Source: an uncultured Desulfobacteraceae bacterium
Lineage (GTDB): Bacteria; Desulfobacterota; Desulfobacteria; Desulfobacterales; Desulfatirhabdiaceae
Direction of reading: 5' to 3'
NCBI GenBank assembly: GCA_903839535.1
Contig: CAIMCT010000276.1
Coordinates: 1 to 42,785, forward strand
DNA length: 42,785 bases
The position numbers and the translations under genes were made by a program. The notes under the pieces are model-generated. The model did not search any database. It was not told the DNA's origin and saw only the letters and a list, made by a program, of their open reading frames with translations. Each line of letters starts with the position of its first letter. Positions within the stretch are counted from its first letter, which is position 1. Positions 4,539 through 31,054 of the stretch are shown here, in pieces.

Positions 4539-5441
4539 ATGATGAAGAGAAATATATCGAATATTATTCAAAGTGCTTACGGCAGAATATACAGCCTGGA
4601 TCAATATGAATCGGATCAGTATGAATCGGACCAGCATGAACTGGTTACAAAGCACCGATTTTCTCCTGCCACATGGGAACCCTTTGTGGCTTTCACGAAA
4701 AATCATTGGGCCCGTATTACGCTGATTTCATCCGCCATTATATTGGCGGTGGGGTCCGTCTATTATTACAACCAGATGCTCATTGCCCAGTATAGTGTGG
4801 AATCCGCCTCGGGAAATGTGAAAGCCTTGATGGAGCGGCGTCAGGATACATCTGTCAATCTTTCAATGTCGGTGTTCCACTACACTGTTCATGAATGGAC
4901 TGTGTTGACCGACATCGTTAGGATGCGCGCGGATATGACAAGAGATCATTATCAGCAGCAACCTTTACCCGGTAATTCGGACCAGACATCTGTCAACCCG
5001 AATCAGTCGGCGACAGCCGATAATGACAATCCTGCGGCTCCAAAATCGATTCAAGCCGGAGCGACAGATTCAAAGACACAGGTATCGGCAAAAATCGAAC
5101 CAGTCGATCCCAAAAACGTGGGAATTTCGGCTAAGCAGCAGGAGGTCATGAAGTTGGCTTCCGCTTTCGGTCTGAAACCAGTAGGCGGTTTGTTGGCCTT
5201 GTCAGAAGATCATCCGGACCTGAAATCGACGGGTCCATTTCTGACACTGATGACATCTTTAACCGATGTGGAAAAAGATCTGGCCGCTGCCAGGCTTAAA
5301 TACAACAGTGAGGTTAATATCTACACGACCACCATTACCATGTTTCCTAACAATATTTTTGCAAAAATATTTGGCTTTAAACCCGTGCCTTACTATGAGG
5401 CTACCAAAGAAGCCATGCAGTTTGCACCGATTATATATTAG
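4539..5441 (+). CDS. mamQ: MamQ, LemA-like magnetosome membrane protein
   Basis: The 300-aa protein has a short cytoplasmic N-terminus with a small repeat (SDQYE three times, residues 24-38), one transmembrane helix (about 58-77), then a LemA-like helical region starting YNQMLIAQYSVESASGNVKA and containing the LemA-style segment MERRQDTSVNLSMSV. A Q/N/P/A-rich linker (about 145-195) is inserted before the C-terminal helical part. MamQ is a conserved magnetosome protein of the LemA family, required for magnetosome membrane formation in Magnetospirillum. ATGs at 4539 and 4542 are both possible. The linker length is unusual for a LemA protein. Confidence 0.75.
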   Translation: MMKRNISNIIQSAYGRIYSLDQYESDQYESDQHELVTKHRFSPATWEPFVAFTKNHWARITLISSAIILAVGSVYYYNQMLIAQYSVESASGNVKALMERRQDTSVNLSMSVFHYTVHEWTVLTDIVRMRADMTRDHYQQQPLPGNSDQTSVNPNQSATADNDNPAAPKSIQAGATDSKTQVSAKIEPVDPKNVGISAKQQEVMKLASAFGLKPVGGLLALSEDHPDLKSTGPFLTLMTSLTDVEKDLAAARLKYNSEVNIYTTTITMFPNNIFAKIFGFKPVPYYEATKEAMQFAPIIY

Positions 5442-6028: not shown

Positions 6029-6160
6029 ATGTTTATTCTTAAAATTATCGGATTTGTGATAATCATCGCGGTGTTGGTGTTCGCAGTTTATCTACTGAAA
6101 GCGGTTTCGGAAATGGAAGCAGAGATCAAGGCCGAGCGGCCGTTGAAGGATGAAGAATGA
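6029..6160 (+). CDS. 43-aa single-span membrane peptide
   Basis: A 43-codon frame encodes a hydrophobic N-terminal helix (MFILKIIGFVIIIAVLVFAV) followed by a charged tail (EMEAEIKAERPLKDEE). Its TGA overlaps the mamB start codon as ATGA (6157-6160), the usual sign of translational coupling. The position directly before mamB suggests a small magnetosome membrane protein or a partner of the MamB transporter. No specific family is recognised. Confidence 0.65.
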   Translation: MFILKIIGFVIIIAVLVFAVYLLKAVSEMEAEIKAERPLKDEE

Positions 6161-7035
6161 AATACCGAGCATGCCGGAAATGCGCCGACAGTGTTGGTGT
6201 CGTCAATGTGGTTGGCAATATCCTGATGATCCTTATCAAGGGATATATGGGCGTGGTGGGCCAAAGCCGAGGACTGATCGCCGATGCCGTCCATTCCTGC
6301 GCCGATCTTTTGGCCACTCTTGTCATGATAATCGGGCTGAAACTTTCCGACCGTGAAGAGGATGCCGATTATCCTTATGGTTATGGAAAGATCGAATATA
6401 TCGTATCCATTATTATCTATTTGTTTTTGATGGTGATCGCCGCCTTTATTATCTATGAGGGCATTGTGAGCATCGTGCAGGGGCGAAAAGTCATTATTTG
6501 CTGGTCGGCAGCCTGGGGCGCCATTATCGCCATTGTAATAAACGAACTCATGTTTCGCCAAAGCGTCTGCGCAGGCAAACAGATCAACAGCCCATCAATG
6601 GTGGCCAAGGCTTGGGAATCCCGATCGGATGTCTATGCCTCCATCGCGGTATTGATCGGGATTATCGGCGCAAAGTTGGGATTTCATTTTATGGACCCGC
6701 TGGCGGCGGCTGTTGTCGGAGTGATCATTATCAAGATTTGTATCGAATACATAAAAGAATCCTCATTGAATCTTTTGGACAAGGCACCTGAAGAAGAAAT
6801 TCTTGTAAATGCCACAAAAGCGCTGGGGACGGTAGAAACCGTCCGCGGGGTCAAAAATATTTTTGCCAGAGAACTGGGTCAGTATATGGAATTTGAAACA
6901 GAACTCTATGTCTCTGCCGAAACGTCCGTGTCCCAGTGCGAAACCATAAAAAAGAATGTGAAACAGGCCATAGCCGATTCGATCGACCGAAAGACCATCG
7001 TTAAGGTCAGATTATTTGCATTTTCAGACAGCTAA
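6157..7035 (+). CDS. mamB: MamB, cation diffusion facilitator
   Basis: The 292-aa CDF protein aligns with MamB: CxxC at C6/C9, IADAVHSCAD in helix 2, YPYGYGKIEY, then NELMFR..C.G...NSP...KAWESRSD, which is close to the MamB-specific pattern. The predicted transport site is H46, D50, E154 and D158, so metal-binding side chains are all present (Glu stands where Magnetospirillum MamB has Asp). The C-terminal cytoplasmic domain (from about 205) would dimerise. MamB loads iron into the magnetosome and also nucleates membrane invagination in model strains. It overlaps the preceding small ORF by four bases; the next gene starts 10 bp after its stop. Confidence 0.88.
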   Translation: MKYRACRKCADSVGVVNVVGNILMILIKGYMGVVGQSRGLIADAVHSCADLLATLVMIIGLKLSDREEDADYPYGYGKIEYIVSIIIYLFLMVIAAFIIYEGIVSIVQGRKVIICWSAAWGAIIAIVINELMFRQSVCAGKQINSPSMVAKAWESRSDVYASIAVLIGIIGAKLGFHFMDPLAAAVVGVIIIKICIEYIKESSLNLLDKAPEEEILVNATKALGTVETVRGVKNIFARELGQYMEFETELYVSAETSVSQCETIKKNVKQAIADSIDRKTIVKVRLFAFSDS

Positions 7036-7045
7036 AGCAGGTGAT

Positions 7046-8665
7046 ATGAAGAGTAAAACCGAATACGAATTTTGCATGTCTCAGTTTAAGCCGGCCATTG
7101 TCGTCATTACGATTCTTGTGGTTGTGGTGATTGGCTGGATGGTGCGCGATTGCATGAACAGACGGCACTCCCTGGATTATTCCTTGATTGCCGCTACGGT
7201 ACCGATGGGACCGCCCATCCTGGTTAAGGATAAAGCGACGCATCCGTACTGGGGAAACTGTAGCAAATGCCATCTTACCACCAATGCTGGCAAACCCGTT
7301 TCCAAAGTTATGGTAGGCCCGCCAATTTCTATTAAACAGAAGATGACGCATGACGACTGGGGGAATTGTCTTTTATGCCATCAGATCACTGACGGAATTC
7401 AACCAGGCAAGACCCAGCAGACGCTTGCCAAGGCTGCGGCGGCCAATCGGATCAACGCCCAAACCTTGGGGTTAAAGACCCAGACCGTAACCGCCGCCAT
7501 GATGAAACAGCTTGGTTTACCCAACGAGGATGGCGTTCTGGTGCTTGAGGTAGCTCCCAATTCAAACGGCGCCAGCGCCGGAATGTTGAAGGGGGATGAA
7601 ATCATCCGTGTGGGCAAGACCCGCATCGAGACTATCGGCAATTTGGATACGGCCATAGCCGGCTATAAGCCAGGAGAAACCGTTCAATTCAAGATTTACA
7701 GGGGAAATAAAAGTAGAAATATCTATGCTCTGCTCCCGGACAAACTGCTTCCTGCGGCCGCTACGGCACCAATGACACAGAACCAGGTAGAAACTCTGGC
7801 CGAACAACTCGGCGTGCCTAAAACCCAGCAGGCGGTAAGCCAGGCTCTGCAACAGCAGCAGCAAGGAAAAGTGGCGGCCGCAACAGCGCCCATGACGCAA
7901 AACCAGGTAGAAACGCTGGCTGAACAACTCGGCGTGCCCAAAACCCAGCAGGCTGTGACTCAGGCTCTGCAACAGCAGCAACAAGGAAAAGTGGTGGCTG
8001 CAACAGCGCCCATGACACAGAACCAGGTAGAAACTCTGGCTGAACAGCTCGGAGTACCCAAAACCCAGCAGGCTGTGACCCAGGCCCTGCAACAGCGGCA
8101 GCAAGGAAAGACAGGTGCCGCCGCTGCGCCGCCTATGTCGCAGAACCAGGTGGAAACGCTGGCCGAACAGCTCGGAGTGCCCAAAACCCAGCAGGCTGTG
8201 ACCCAGGCGCTTCAGAAACAGAATCAGGCCAAAACCGTCGCCGCCAATATCTATTATGGCAAAGTGGCGATTGCGTCAACTGGACCCGGACTTGGGTATT
8301 CCGTCTCTCCGCAGTTTGGGGCGAGTCCTTATTTTATCGTTCTTGACCCGACCACGAATAGTTATAGCGTGGCAACCAATCCCAATGCGGGTGGCAGAGC
8401 AGGACAAAATATTCAGACCGGGCAATATATGGTCGATTTGGGTGTCAGCAACGTGGTGGCTGGCGGTTTTACTCCCAACGCAATGCAGGCGCTCCAGAAT
8501 ATGCGGGTAAATGTCTATCCAGGTGTAACCGGTCCGGTGCAGGATGCAATCAGCGCTTATGTTTCGGGGAACCTGGTTACGGGCAATACGTCGCCCGCGG
8601 CCAATTATCCTGGAGGCAACCGCATAACGGGCAACGGCAACTTGAATCAACAGGTGATTTATTAA
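7046..8665 (+). CDS. MamP-like magnetochrome-PDZ protein with NifX-type C-terminus
   Basis: From the ATG at 7046 (AGGTG upstream) the protein has 539 aa. Order of parts: one membrane helix (about 12-32); two magnetochrome motifs, each preceded by a TH..WGNC pattern (C72-SK-CH and C108-LL-CH); a PDZ domain (about 130-230); four tandem 40-residue repeats (239-399, core QVETLAEQLGVPKTQQAV, Q-rich ends); and a C-terminal domain (401-511) that reads as the dinitrogenase FeMo-cofactor biosynthesis (NifX/NifB C-terminal) fold: KVAIAS...SPQFGASPYFIVLD...GVSNVVAGGFTPNAMQAL. MamP in Magnetospirillum is a PDZ plus two magnetochromes that oxidises iron; here the order is reversed and the NifX-type domain is extra. 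Iron or iron-sulfur binding by that domain is inference. Confidence 0.8.
   Translation: MKSKTEYEFCMSQFKPAIVVITILVVVVIGWMVRDCMNRRHSLDYSLIAATVPMGPPILVKDKATHPYWGNCSKCHLTTNAGKPVSKVMVGPPISIKQKMTHDDWGNCLLCHQITDGIQPGKTQQTLAKAAAANRINAQTLGLKTQTVTAAMMKQLGLPNEDGVLVLEVAPNSNGASAGMLKGDEIIRVGKTRIETIGNLDTAIAGYKPGETVQFKIYRGNKSRNIYALLPDKLLPAAATAPMTQNQVETLAEQLGVPKTQQAVSQALQQQQQGKVAAATAPMTQNQVETLAEQLGVPKTQQAVTQALQQQQQGKVVAATAPMTQNQVETLAEQLGVPKTQQAVTQALQQRQQGKTGAAAAPPMSQNQVETLAEQLGVPKTQQAVTQALQKQNQAKTVAANIYYGKVAIASTGPGLGYSVSPQFGASPYFIVLDPTTNSYSVATNPNAGGRAGQNIQTGQYMVDLGVSNVVAGGFTPNAMQALQNMRVNVYPGVTGPVQDAISAYVSGNLVTGNTSPAANYPGGNRITGNGNLNQQVIY
7760..8242 (+). repeat. four tandem 120-bp coding repeats
   Basis: Units start at about 7760, 7880, 8000 and 8120; the first three are exactly 120 bp and the last is slightly longer. 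They are highly similar at DNA level, which points to recent amplification, and each encodes a 40-residue helical, Gln-rich segment between the PDZ and NifX-type domains. Copy number is likely to vary between strains and could be miscounted in a short-read assembly. Confidence 0.85.
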
Positions 8666-8667
8666 AA

Positions 8668-10410
8668 ATGAAAAAGCCGAATATTCGCAAGTTAATCTCA
8701 CGGATGGACAGAGGACTGCTCTGGCTGGGCCCAGTGTCCGTCCTGGCCTTTGTGGTGTTATTGACCGTGATGTACGGATGGGTCGGCGATATTGTTCCAC
8801 CCACCGAAGAGAGCCCGGAAACACCCGAAATCAGTCTGGCCAATCAGATGCAAGTTCCCGTCCCAACCAATGGTCAGCAGGCGGGGGGGGGGCAATTGGC
8901 TAATGGTGGCATCCAATTTCCAGCCGGCATCGGTGGCGGTCAAATTCAGTTGATCGACAATCCGACTTTCCCTGCGGGAATCGGCAATGGTCAGATTCAA
9001 TTGATCAACAATCCGACTTTTTCGGCCGGCATTGGAAATGGTCAGATTCAGCTCATCAATCAGGCAATACAAGCACCTTATGTGGGGCTGAGCTTTGGTG
9101 AGCTGGCTGCTGCGGTAGCCAGAGAATTGAAGCTGGAGCCTGGAACAGGGCTGTATGTCAAGGCCGTGGTGGTGGGCTCTCCCGCAGAAAAAGCCGGAAT
9201 CAGGACAGGCGATGTGGTTCTGGAATGCGACCACCAGAAAGTCAACTTGCAGGATCAGGTAGGCGTCATTTTGAAGACAAAAAAAGCAGGCGATGTAATC
9301 AAGCTGGTTGTGAATCGAGGCGGGAAAATCCAATCGTTTCACATAAAGCTTCAAAATGCACCTAACGGACTTGTTCAGGCAGCAGCCACCCAGAACCCGA
9401 ACTGGATGGGAGCCGATATTCAGGATATCGATGCGGTCATGAAGCTCCAGTTCAAACTGCCGGACAAAAACGGTGTCATTGTCAGTCATATCACCGCTCA
9501 GTCGCCAGCACAAACCTCCGGACTTAAATCCGGTGATGTCATCAGCCGTTTTGGTGGCACGCGCATCAGGGATGTCAAGCAGCTTCAATCCCTGATATTG
9601 GCTGCTCAGCCCGGCAGTCAGGTACAGCTTACGGTATTTCGATCAGGGCAGTATGTGACTTTGCCGATGATTCTGGGTCAACAGGCACCAACTGCTCCCA
9701 AAATTCCGTTTTTGGGTCCTGCGGATGTGGCGATCGAGGGCGCATGGATCGGCATGGATGTGGCCGAACTTTCAGCCAATGATGTCAGCTCTCTGGGTCT
9801 GCCGGCCGGTACCAGCGGGGTGCTAGTGGCAGATGTGGAAGGCCCGCCCGCCAGCATGGTGGGGTTTCAGGTGAGCGATGTGATTACTGCCGTCAACGGT
9901 GAACCAACGCCGGACATGAAAAGTTTTGCCGCCGCCACCCAGAAGCAGACAGGTGCTGTGGTGGATGTCATTCGTGGGGAAAAGCATCTGTTCATCAGCG
10001 TACCCCCGCCTGGCTTTACCCAGCAGGGCACCAAAATCAAAACTGGACTGGACAGCAAATTTAAACAAGTGGCAGCAGCAAGACCGATCGACGGCTATCT
10101 GGCCATTCTAACAGTCAGTCCGGAGATCAATGCTGCAGTCACCCAAAACCTGACTAATTCACCCTATCTTGTCATAGTGGATCTGCAAAAGGATTCATAC
10201 GCGGTTACCAACGCATTCAGTCAGACTATGATATCAGAATTGACAAGGCAATACAATGTTAAGGCCCTGGTCTGTGGTAATATATCAGAACAAACCGCTC
10301 AATCGTTGAGTGCCAACGGTGTGGTCATTTACAGTGGTGTTGTCGGGACAGCCCTTGAGGCGATCGGGTTATATCAGTCCAACAGTCTGTTGGCCATGCA
10401 GGGGTTTTAA
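8668..10410 (+). CDS. triple-PDZ magnetosome protein with degenerate NifX-type domain
   Basis: The 580-aa protein starts 3 bp after the previous stop. It has one membrane helix (about 16-38), a low-complexity region with three 17-residue repeats (GNGQIQLINNPTFSAGI type, residues 85-130), three PDZ domains (about 135-229, 244-336 and 358-448) and a C-terminal region (about 472-576, DGYLAILTVSPE...SPYLVIVDLQ...NVKALVCGNIS) that resembles a diverged NifX/FeMo-co-type domain like that of its upstream neighbour. There is no protease domain and no CXXCH. The shared C-terminus and adjacency suggest the two genes are partial paralogues. A lumenal or periplasmic scaffold or metal chaperone role is inferred. 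Confidence 0.75.
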   Translation: MKKPNIRKLISRMDRGLLWLGPVSVLAFVVLLTVMYGWVGDIVPPTEESPETPEISLANQMQVPVPTNGQQAGGGQLANGGIQFPAGIGGGQIQLIDNPTFPAGIGNGQIQLINNPTFSAGIGNGQIQLINQAIQAPYVGLSFGELAAAVARELKLEPGTGLYVKAVVVGSPAEKAGIRTGDVVLECDHQKVNLQDQVGVILKTKKAGDVIKLVVNRGGKIQSFHIKLQNAPNGLVQAAATQNPNWMGADIQDIDAVMKLQFKLPDKNGVIVSHITAQSPAQTSGLKSGDVISRFGGTRIRDVKQLQSLILAAQPGSQVQLTVFRSGQYVTLPMILGQQAPTAPKIPFLGPADVAIEGAWIGMDVAELSANDVSSLGLPAGTSGVLVADVEGPPASMVGFQVSDVITAVNGEPTPDMKSFAAATQKQTGAVVDVIRGEKHLFISVPPPGFTQQGTKIKTGLDSKFKQVAAARPIDGYLAILTVSPEINAAVTQNLTNSPYLVIVDLQKDSYAVTNAFSQTMISELTRQYNVKALVCGNISEQTAQSLSANGVVIYSGVVGTALEAIGLYQSNSLLAMQGF

Positions 10411-10473
10411 TGAAGCGCTATGCAGCAGATGGACTTTTTGTGAAGCCATCCTTTGGTTTTCCAGATCGGGCAA

Positions 10474-11337
10474 ATGAAAAAGAATAAAAATTTTAAAATC
10501 AACGACTACTTCTGGCCAATAACGGTTCTGATGCTGCTGGTGTTAGGTACCATTTGGAGCAATGTGGGGTTTAAGCAAAATGGAGTGTTGCCAAGCAGTC
10601 CGCAATTGGCGGTTCCACTCCCGGTTGTTCAAACCCAGCCGATGCGTCAGGAGAGTGTGGCTTCACCCGTAACGATACTGGCGGTTCAGGAAGATATCAG
10701 TCGCGTTGTTTCAATGGTCAGGCCATCGGTCGTTGGGATATTCAGGACCAACACCAGCCAGCTCCAGTCGAATCCCAATGGATTGGCCTACTTGGACCCC
10801 TATCAGTCAAATGATGGTCTGGTTGGCTCCGGCATTATCATCGATTACCGCGGTTATGTGCTTACCACCTTTCAGACAGTGGGCAAGTCCAACCCGGTTC
10901 GGGTCACAGTATTTACCGGTGGCAGGCGGGATTACCATGCAGACGTAATCGGAGTGGATCAAAAAACCGATCTGGCTTTATTGAAGATCAGAACAGAGGA
11001 CAGTTTTGCAGCAGTAATACTGGGGAATTCTGACTTGGTAAAGGTGGGGGACATTGTTTTGGCCATCGGCAGCCCCTTTGGTTTTGCCCGGACTGTGACG
11101 ATGGGCATCATCAGCAGCAACAACCGCCAACTGAACATAAATGGCATCCGCTACCCGGATTTGATTCAGACGGATGCCTCCATCAATCAAGGCAATGATG
11201 GAGGTCCGTTGGTAAACGTAAAAGGCGAGGTTATCGGAATCAATATGGCCTGTTTCATGCCGGACAATCATTTTTCCGGAATCGGATTCGCTATCCCGAT
11301 GAATGATGTGATGGCCTTTTTGAACGCTAATTTGTAA
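10474..11337 (+). CDS. mamO: MamO/MamE-like trypsin-fold pseudoprotease
   Basis: From ATG 10474 (287 aa; an in-frame TTG at 10453 would add 7) the protein has an N-terminal membrane helix and a DegP/HtrA-type trypsin domain: GSGIIIDYRGYVLTT, TDLALLKI, GSPFGFARTVTMGIIS, QTDASINQGNDGGPLV, GIGFAIP. The catalytic triad is broken: His is Gln (Q134), the Asp is kept (D166) and the nucleophilic Ser is Asp (D242). It should therefore have no serine protease activity. No PDZ, magnetochrome or TauE domain follows. MamO of Magnetospirillum is a known pseudoprotease that binds metal and promotes mineral nucleation; this protein fits that role better than active MamE. Confidence 0.75.
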   Translation: MKKNKNFKINDYFWPITVLMLLVLGTIWSNVGFKQNGVLPSSPQLAVPLPVVQTQPMRQESVASPVTILAVQEDISRVVSMVRPSVVGIFRTNTSQLQSNPNGLAYLDPYQSNDGLVGSGIIIDYRGYVLTTFQTVGKSNPVRVTVFTGGRRDYHADVIGVDQKTDLALLKIRTEDSFAAVILGNSDLVKVGDIVLAIGSPFGFARTVTMGIISSNNRQLNINGIRYPDLIQTDASINQGNDGGPLVNVKGEVIGINMACFMPDNHFSGIGFAIPMNDVMAFLNANL

Positions 11338-29869: not shown

Positions 29870-31054
29870 ATGCCTGAGGGAAAAGATCTTCAAGACCTTC
29901 AAGAACGCTTGGCCGAAATAAATCGACACGAAATGGGCGATACGGATGTCTCACAAATGAATTCGAACACTCAAAAAGAAGATAAAAAAATGGAAAATGC
30001 AACAGATGCATCTCGTAAACCGGTGGTGGCTAAGGAAAGAGAGACGGGGCAGATGGCGGAAAGCCCATCTGGACCTGTCGGCCTGGATGTGGGAACAACC
30101 CACATCGTGATCGCACAAAACGAAGTGAACCACATCAAAACCACCAAACAGTTGAATGCTTTTTTTACAATTCCAAAGTCAAAATTCGCAAAAAGAATCC
30201 TTTCCAACAACGAAATTCTATACTACGAATTGGGAGATTTATTCTATATCATCGGCTATTCGGCCGATAGCTTCGCCAATATGTTTAATACCAATACGCG
30301 GCGATCAATTAAAAATGGAATTCTAAGCACCGTTGAAAAAGAAGGTGTAAGTGTTATTCAGGCAGCGGTGGTTTCACTGCTCAACAAGCCCAAACGTTTT
30401 GGCGAAACTATATGCTTTGCCGTCCCTGGCGAGCCTTTACACGGTACCGGCAGCGTGTTGTACCATGAATCTATCATCAAGCGTTTTCTAAGCCACATGG
30501 GCTACACCCCCATATCCGTAAATGAAGCCATGACTGTAGTGTTATCAGAATTGTCAGACGAAGACCACACTGGTATCGGCATCAGCTTGGGCGGAGGGAT
30601 GTGCAACGTTTGTCTGTCTTATTTATCGTTTCCGGTTATCACCTATAGCCTGCAAATTGCAGGTGACTATATCGATACGATGGTCGGACAATCTGTTGGA
30701 GAACCTGCGACCAAAATAAAGCTGATTAAAGAACATGAACTCGACCTTGGCAGTGAGCCAAAGGACAGAGTTATGACTGCCCTTCATATTTTTTATGATG
30801 ACCTCATCAATAAACTTATTGATAGTATGCAACGGGTGCTGTCCTCCACAGATCAGATTCCCATGATAGCAAACCCTATTCCCATTGTTTTAAGCGGCGG
30901 AACAGCCATGCCGAAGAGGTTCACCGAAAGGTTTACGAAAACCCTTAAAAATTACAAGCTGCCGGTTGAAATTTCCACCGTGCGTCTGGCTGACGATCCA
31001 CTCAACACAACCGCCAAGGGTGCTTTGATTATGGCTATGACCGAAGCGGAATAA
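29870..31054 (+). CDS. mad28: second actin-like protein, Mad28 type
   Basis: The 394-aa protein has a polar N-terminal extension (about 65 residues, with the helix LQDLQERLAEINR) and then an actin/Hsp70-fold domain: phosphate-1 VGLDVGTTHIV, a region around SVNEAMTVVLS, and adenosine motif VLSGGTAMPKRF. The phosphate-2 loop is degenerate: GISLGGGMCN (S239 to N246) stands where MamK has VDIGAGTTD, losing both Asp residues. Nucleotide hydrolysis may be weak or absent. Deltaproteobacterial magnetosome clusters carry a second actin homologue named Mad28, and this gene fits it by position and type. An alternative is another MamK-like paralogue. Confidence 0.75.
   Translation: MPEGKDLQDLQERLAEINRHEMGDTDVSQMNSNTQKEDKKMENATDASRKPVVAKERETGQMAESPSGPVGLDVGTTHIVIAQNEVNHIKTTKQLNAFFTIPKSKFAKRILSNNEILYYELGDLFYIIGYSADSFANMFNTNTRRSIKNGILSTVEKEGVSVIQAAVVSLLNKPKRFGETICFAVPGEPLHGTGSVLYHESIIKRFLSHMGYTPISVNEAMTVVLSELSDEDHTGIGISLGGGMCNVCLSYLSFPVITYSLQIAGDYIDTMVGQSVGEPATKIKLIKEHELDLGSEPKDRVMTALHIFYDDLINKLIDSMQRVLSSTDQIPMIANPIPIVLSGGTAMPKRFTERFTKTLKNYKLPVEISTVRLADDPLNTTAKGALIMAMTEAE

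Follow-up and report, generated by a model that had tools for sequence, protein, structure and literature searches.

Does a NifX-type domain that is fused to heme and PDZ domains in a magnetosome protein carry a metal cluster, or has it been put to another use? The question is raised by the open reading frame (ORF) at 7046-8665 of a 42,785-nucleotide stretch of DNA from an uncultured Desulfobacteraceae bacterium (contig CAIMCT010000276.1; hereafter, the window). Because of its domain architecture and the gene order mamB-X-fmpA, its product is identified from sequence as FmpB/MamP*, encoded in a Desulfobacterota magnetosome gene cluster. The NifX-type domain of this protein probably lacks the usual metal-cluster carriage, because the residues that its relatives use for metal clusters are lost. 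The 'NifX/FeMo-co' label tempts one toward Fe-S chemistry in biomineralization when the NifX/NafY residues for that chemistry are absent.

The protein has the order MCR1-MCR2-PDZ-NitroFeMoCo and its gene lies between mamB and fmpA. The same architecture, a magnetochrome tandem, a PDZ domain and a C-terminal NitroFeMoCo domain, was described in 2014 for MamP* of RS-1 and BW-1 (PMC3971196), and the RS-1 gene received the name fmpB in 2015, where mamB (DMR_41110), fmpB (DMR_41100; MamP*/MamP-like) and fmpA (DMR_41090; MamE-Cter) are consecutive (PMC4287615). The likeness to RS-1 FmpB rests on this published description and on the shared adjacency to mamB and fmpA. The heme-PDZ-NifX fusion, pointed out in a first-pass annotation made from the sequence alone, is therefore already known from print, and the window adds an orthologue. 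That annotation also likened the protein to MamP of magnetotactic Alphaproteobacteria, which shares a PDZ domain and two magnetochromes. However, the published account of MamP places the PDZ domain before the magnetochromes, the reverse of FmpB, and names no NifX domain (PMC3971196); on this order and an NCBIfam MamP model score of 47.9 bits against a cut-off of 300, a MamP identity was rejected. The proposed link between the fusion protein and magnetosome formation is supported. In RS-1, fmpB mutants carry a frameshift at residue 270 (PMC4287615, 2015; PMC12748827, 2025). FmpA and FmpB are reported to have the Fe-Mo domain in common and to be enriched on early-stage magnetosomes, and mutations predicted to eliminate their Fe-Mo domains gave fewer, smaller and misplaced crystals (PMC12748827).

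Ligand site and fold of the NifX-type domain

In NafY, the cofactor ligand is H121, within a conserved His-Phe-Gly (HFG) motif (PMC8496260), and in NifX, NifB-co is coordinated by H35 in a positively charged pocket; NifY and NafX are described as missing this His while keeping the fold (PMC13128457). The corresponding positions were compared across 92 distinct domain copies: 16 from FmpB (15 genomes with the C-terminal domain plus L013, a further locus whose FmpB is split over two frames), 13 from FmpA, 14 from the large multi-NifX proteins described below and 49 others. The latter come from the window's own genome and Desulfobacterota genomes (frames ≤317 residues) and are not a random sample, having been selected as the strongest hits to either PF02579 or the FmpB profile. 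The comparison leaves out rows whose domain E-value is >0.01, that span <76 model positions or whose cores are identical.

The 49 others show Arg (40) or His (9) at the ligand column, and the FmpB copies show Gln (14), Val (1) or Asn (1). Window FmpB has Gln there, and the cofactor-binding His of the HFG motif is absent. Three columns further on, Arg (44) predominates among the others, with His (3) or Ser (2) in the rest; FmpB never has Arg or His there (one copy has Lys). Both columns are occupied by Arg or His in 47/49 of the others and in none of the magnetosome copies (0/43; FmpB 0/16, FmpA 0/13, large proteins 0/14). Two Cys columns common among the others (31/49 and 21/49) are replaced in FmpB, the first by Ser in 16/16 copies and the second by Phe or Leu, and Cys averages only 0.06 per FmpB domain. 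Some FmpB copies contain His (0.81 per domain, flanks included), but eight aligned FmpB domains share no invariant Cys or His column. In FmpA, 12/13 rows carry a Cys, located in a different strand. FmpB domains also have fewer charged residues (5.7-12.8% DEKR versus 9.7-28.1%) and more Asn and Gln, in statistics that ignore relatedness.

The domain itself is clearly recognizable. It matches Nitro_FeMo-Co (PF02579) at 5.1e-14 and 52.8 bits, against a cut-off of 26.3 (residues 418-506, model positions 3-93 of 94), and structure prediction confirms the NifX-type, ribonuclease-H-like fold. Both results uphold the domain assignment of the first-pass annotation. Modeled alone, with an alignment of 16 FmpB and FmpA domain rows, it reaches a predicted local distance difference test (pLDDT) score of 87; no fold claim rests on the full-length model, whose pLDDT averages 46 and is <40 over most of the NifX part. 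VIA-align ranks apo-ORP first (2WFB, Z 20.1, root-mean-square deviation 1.5, 112 residues), followed by TM1816, TM1290, PH0822, TA1041m, MTH1175 and MJ0327, and then by the NafY core (1P90, Z 12.0) and NifX (9IAN, Z 10.6); the structure listed after these, from outside the family, scores Z 6.9. Foldseek agrees, and 1O13 is also among the fold matches. By sequence profile, the best match in the PDB is MTH1175 (3.7e-16).

ORP, MTH1175, TM1290 and TM1816, together with IssA via MTH1175, are thus the nearest relatives of the FmpB domain in fold and sequence. Unlike FmpB, these four are small single proteins, and all have Arg three positions past the ligand column, where FmpB has Ala. The NifX/NafY chaperones share the fold, whereas FmpB lacks their HFG motif, is fused to heme and PDZ parts and is membrane anchored. 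The missing cofactor His is a feature FmpB shares with NifY and NafX. In the domain tree, the 49 other members fall on one side of a branch (90/75) and the FmpA domain forms a separate clade (100/98). Placing the FmpA and FmpB domains together is not rejected by an approximately unbiased (AU) test (p 0.59), and a grouping of FmpB with the domains at the C-terminus of the large multi-NifX proteins has no tree support (34/0). The FmpA and FmpB domains may, but need not, share one origin.

The first-pass annotation had suggested that the NifX-type domain holds an Fe-S or iron cluster, which outside the cytoplasm would pass iron or a precursor to the heme sites. Apo-ORP as the best structural match would fit this idea, and ORP carries a Mo-Cu cluster according to reference titles; the reported drop in crystal number in RS-1 when the domain is lost along with the linker and the tail, and the variation of the ligand column seen in MTH1175 would fit as well. 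Against it stand the absence of Arg and His from both site columns in all FmpB copies and the replaced Cys columns, and a lumenal domain would need to be loaded after export. While the observation behind the suggestion was correct and the kind of protein is known, the sequences speak against the cluster-holding mechanism, which is unlikely.

A proposed assembly role and its competitors

The explanation favored here, with modest confidence, is that the hemes handle electrons for iron and that assembly or docking of an early crystal-growth complex falls to the NifX-type domain and the tail. The hemes would face the magnetosome lumen or the periplasm and move electrons for iron, as has been proposed for other magnetochromes. 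The NifX-type domain would be a repurposed copy comparable to the ligand-less NifY and NafX, and an assembly or docking module is suggested because the fold is kept while the cofactor-ligand position is lost. FmpB, FmpA and other PDZ proteins would be gathered into the early complex, the conserved hydrophobic-aromatic C-terminus of FmpB probably docking in a PDZ domain, either on FmpA or on another FmpB. C-terminal ends of the [IL]-[YFL] or I-x-Y type fit the known ligands of PDZ domains and HtrA proteases. An [IL]-[YFL] C-terminus is present in 15/16 distinct FmpB proteins, on tails of variable length; the exception (L010) stops right after the domain.

Several points weigh against this explanation. 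The contact between the FmpB tail and a PDZ domain and the assembly role are both inferred. Five of 47 hand-listed ORFs of the window end in [IL][YFL], three of which have [IL]Y; an end of this kind is not in itself rare, and only its conservation within a variable tail is notable. As described, the RS-1 frameshift takes linker, NifX domain and tail together, so that the domain is not isolated, and one of the two RS-1 fmpB alleles was not complementable (PMC4287615). The Arg of the first site column is kept in 7/14 copies from the large proteins. Among solved relatives, the ligand column holds Arg (TM1290, ORP), His (TM1816) or, in MTH1175, the closest by sequence, Phe, with Arg just before it and Arg three positions on. 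The column is thus not strict in the family, which lowers the odds slightly, and another metal site is possible despite loss of the known ligand. MTH1175 is moreover placed with IssA, an iron and sulfur store (PMC5524996).

This last relationship bears on a further alternative, in which the domain touches not a discrete cluster but iron mineral in bulk or an anionic polymer of iron sulfide, as IssA does thioferrate. MTH1175 is both the best PDB match by sequence and the template for the published IssA domain model, and the domain is multiplied, alongside Cys-rich motifs, in clusters with a greigite-type gene order. However, the proposed thioferrate grip of IssA is a 70-residue cationic tail, rich in Gly and aromatic residues and holding its single Cys (PMC5524996), whereas the FmpB tail has 27 residues with one Arg, no Lys and no Cys. 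The FmpB domain is itself charge-depleted, and the cluster order of the window appears to be that published for magnetite, not greigite. Contact with mineral or polymer is therefore improbable, more so than cluster holding.

In a single sequence pair (window versus L008), the ratio of nonsynonymous to synonymous substitution rates (dN/dS) is 0.077 for the NifX domain, 0.088 for PDZ, 0.101 for the magnetochromes, 0.079 for the repeats and 0.207 for the tail. By this measure, purifying selection maintains the NifX-type domain even though its known ligand has disappeared. The lost ligand residues could point to a relic without function, left over from an ancestral fusion, but this is scarcely credible given a ratio as low as those of the PDZ and magnetochrome domains, a fold predicted at high confidence and a domain seen in 15/16 FmpB genomes, the sixteenth (G068) having a frame that runs into the contig end. 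Most worth following are the residue-level result at the ligand site and the multi-NifX counterpart of FmpB; a direct test is possible in RS-1, for which fmpA and fmpB mutants exist.

Large multi-NifX proteins in a second cluster type

Two matches to the FmpB profile lie inside much longer frames of 1,326 and 1,273 residues (L051:7375-11352 and L052:5388-9206). Each of these proteins contains two PDZ domains, an N-terminal hydrophobic stretch and PF02579 in three stretches (whole-protein values 5.7e-48 and 1.2e-41). Close relatives were found in 5/389 genomes of the order (G035, G331, G039, G068 and G269; rows judged by hand), the additional loci being L075:10529-13576, L065 and L076/L077; the search listed 164 genomes at 1e-15, the remainder being PDZ or single-NifX matches. 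The number of PF02579 stretches is two in G068, where the protein is cut by the contig end, two in G269, and three in G039 plus one on another contig. Two PDZ domains are present in each of the four large proteins scanned. None of the six pieces contains CXXCH; each has instead two to three Cys-rich motifs, C-x-C-x2-C followed by His.

Genomic neighborhoods place these proteins in the slot after mamB. The next recognized upstream gene is mamB in 5/5 genomes, and a mamE-type protease follows wherever the contig extends further (four genomes; for G039, this is seen on a second contig), giving the order E-Cter-like, E-Nter-like, M-like, A, Q, B, large-protein gene, protease. A matching order is reported for the XL-1 cluster, greigite according to its authors, in which the slot after mamB* is named MamT* (PMC9145555). 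The large-protein clusters are accordingly assigned to the greigite type by gene order, not by mineral. FmpB is also present in four of the five genomes with a large protein, and only the FmpB type was seen in these searches in the window's own genome. Among the matches listed for the PMC literature, no passage was met that describes the domains of a multi-NifX protein.

It is conceivable, though rather doubtful, that the magnetosome PDZ proteins of Desulfobacterota acquired NifX-fold domains on one or a few occasions, and that these domains lost their site for a cluster and came to serve the crystal-growth complex as an assembly module, with one very large protein filling the fmpB-fmpA slot in the second cluster. 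The difference between heme plus NifX and Cys motif plus multi-NifX may then track oxide versus sulfide mineral. The multi-NifX protein would be a concrete candidate for the difference between the two mineral pathways.

Features, distribution and neighboring genes

The coordinates of the gene, its domains and its neighbors are collected in Table 1.

Table 1. Features of fmpB and adjoining genes (window positions)
Feature	Position	Strand	Description or evidence
mamB-type cation diffusion facilitator (CDF) transporter gene	6157..7035	+	MamB model 244.6 bits, top of its list, below cut-off 350
fmpB / mamP* coding sequence	7046..8665	+	539 residues, open frame, ATG start
N-terminal membrane helix, single	7091..7144	+	about residues 16-33, hydrophobic stretch in translation
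First magnetochrome	7211..7276	+	Pfam best stretch residues 56-77; CXXCH at 72-76
Second magnetochrome	7319..7387	+	residues 92-114; CXXCH at 108-112; published residue pattern matches
PDZ domain	7523..7723	+	residues 160-226, PDZ_2 PF13180 5.1e-12
Four repeats of about 40 residues	7754..8208	+	core MTQNQVETLAEQLGVPKTQQ (fourth: MSQ); Tandem Repeats Finder (TRF)
NifX-type (PF02579) domain without basic ligand pair	8297..8563	+	Pfam, profile, structure, site residues
Variable tail, ending Val-Ile-Tyr	8582..8662	+	putatively PDZ-ligand-like; C-termini of relatives
fmpA	8668..10410	+	PDZ in three stretches; another PF02579 domain, more diverged than that of FmpB
mamE-type HtrA protease domain gene	10453..11337	+	no PDZ match

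Translation, Pfam and TRF bear out the make-up given by the first-pass annotation: one membrane helix, two CXXCH magnetochromes, PDZ, four repeats and the C-terminal domain. A TTG 30 bases 5' of the ATG stretches the mechanical ORF to 549 residues. The low-confidence full-length model has a helix at residues 4-37. Pfam finds the MCR magnetochrome at 7.2e-15 in two stretches; the published residue pattern fits the second motif only (PMC3971196), the first being Pfam-based, and the first CXXCH is invariant across nine aligned rows. The repeat has a 120-bp unit in 3.8 copies (86% matches), ranges from one to four copies among relatives with a nearly unchanged core, and has no match elsewhere in the same genome at E≤10. 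Pfam matches over the repeats (DUF2789 and TAF just above their cut-offs; O6-methylguanine transferase and others below theirs) were set aside as probably compositional. The genome contains seven PF02579 matches at E≤1, two of them the FmpB and FmpA fusions. A plasmid search returned five records with single-domain matches (four to the PDZ part, one to the NifX part), none covering 80%.

Genome searches were centered on the window's own order and phylum. With a nine-row FmpB alignment as query, 23/389 genomes of the order matched at 1e-20, of which 13 contain FmpB (N-terminal part matched) and 10 only other NifX-type proteins (rows judged by hand). Across the phylum, 6/395 genomes matched at 1e-30, three of them new, giving 16 FmpB genomes overall. 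The C-terminal domain lies on a second contig in G206 and comes from a match row counting two internal stops in G039. The FmpB encoded at L053:7930-9441 is diverged and has three CXXCH motifs, along with magnetochrome matches in three stretches.

The genes are tightly packed, mamB ending 10 bases 5' of fmpB and fmpB 2 bases before fmpA. Like FmpB, FmpA combines a C-terminal PF02579 domain with PDZ; it differs in having no heme motif, and its PF02579 match (10135-10377) is weak (3.8e-6, 27.6 bits, cut-off 26.3). FmpA has a short tandem repeat of its own ahead of its PDZ domains (8938-9059; 51 bp × 2.4). Other loci have, between fmpA and mamE, a gene of about 600-730 residues that includes a MamE-like protease part (MamEO-like). 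It is missing in the window (10410-10453) and in L008; the window's genome has a MamEO-like match on another contig (C102:3074-4762). MamQ (LemA, 4539-5441) of fmpB-type clusters ends in I-x-Y in 12/12 distinct C-termini, including that of the window, 11 of them P-I-x-Y; in clusters with the large multi-NifX protein, this end occurs in 0/4. Further downstream, at 29870-31054, lies an actin-like cluster gene (MamK or Mad28), which matches the Volactin Pfam family at 3.6e-74 and MreB only weakly.
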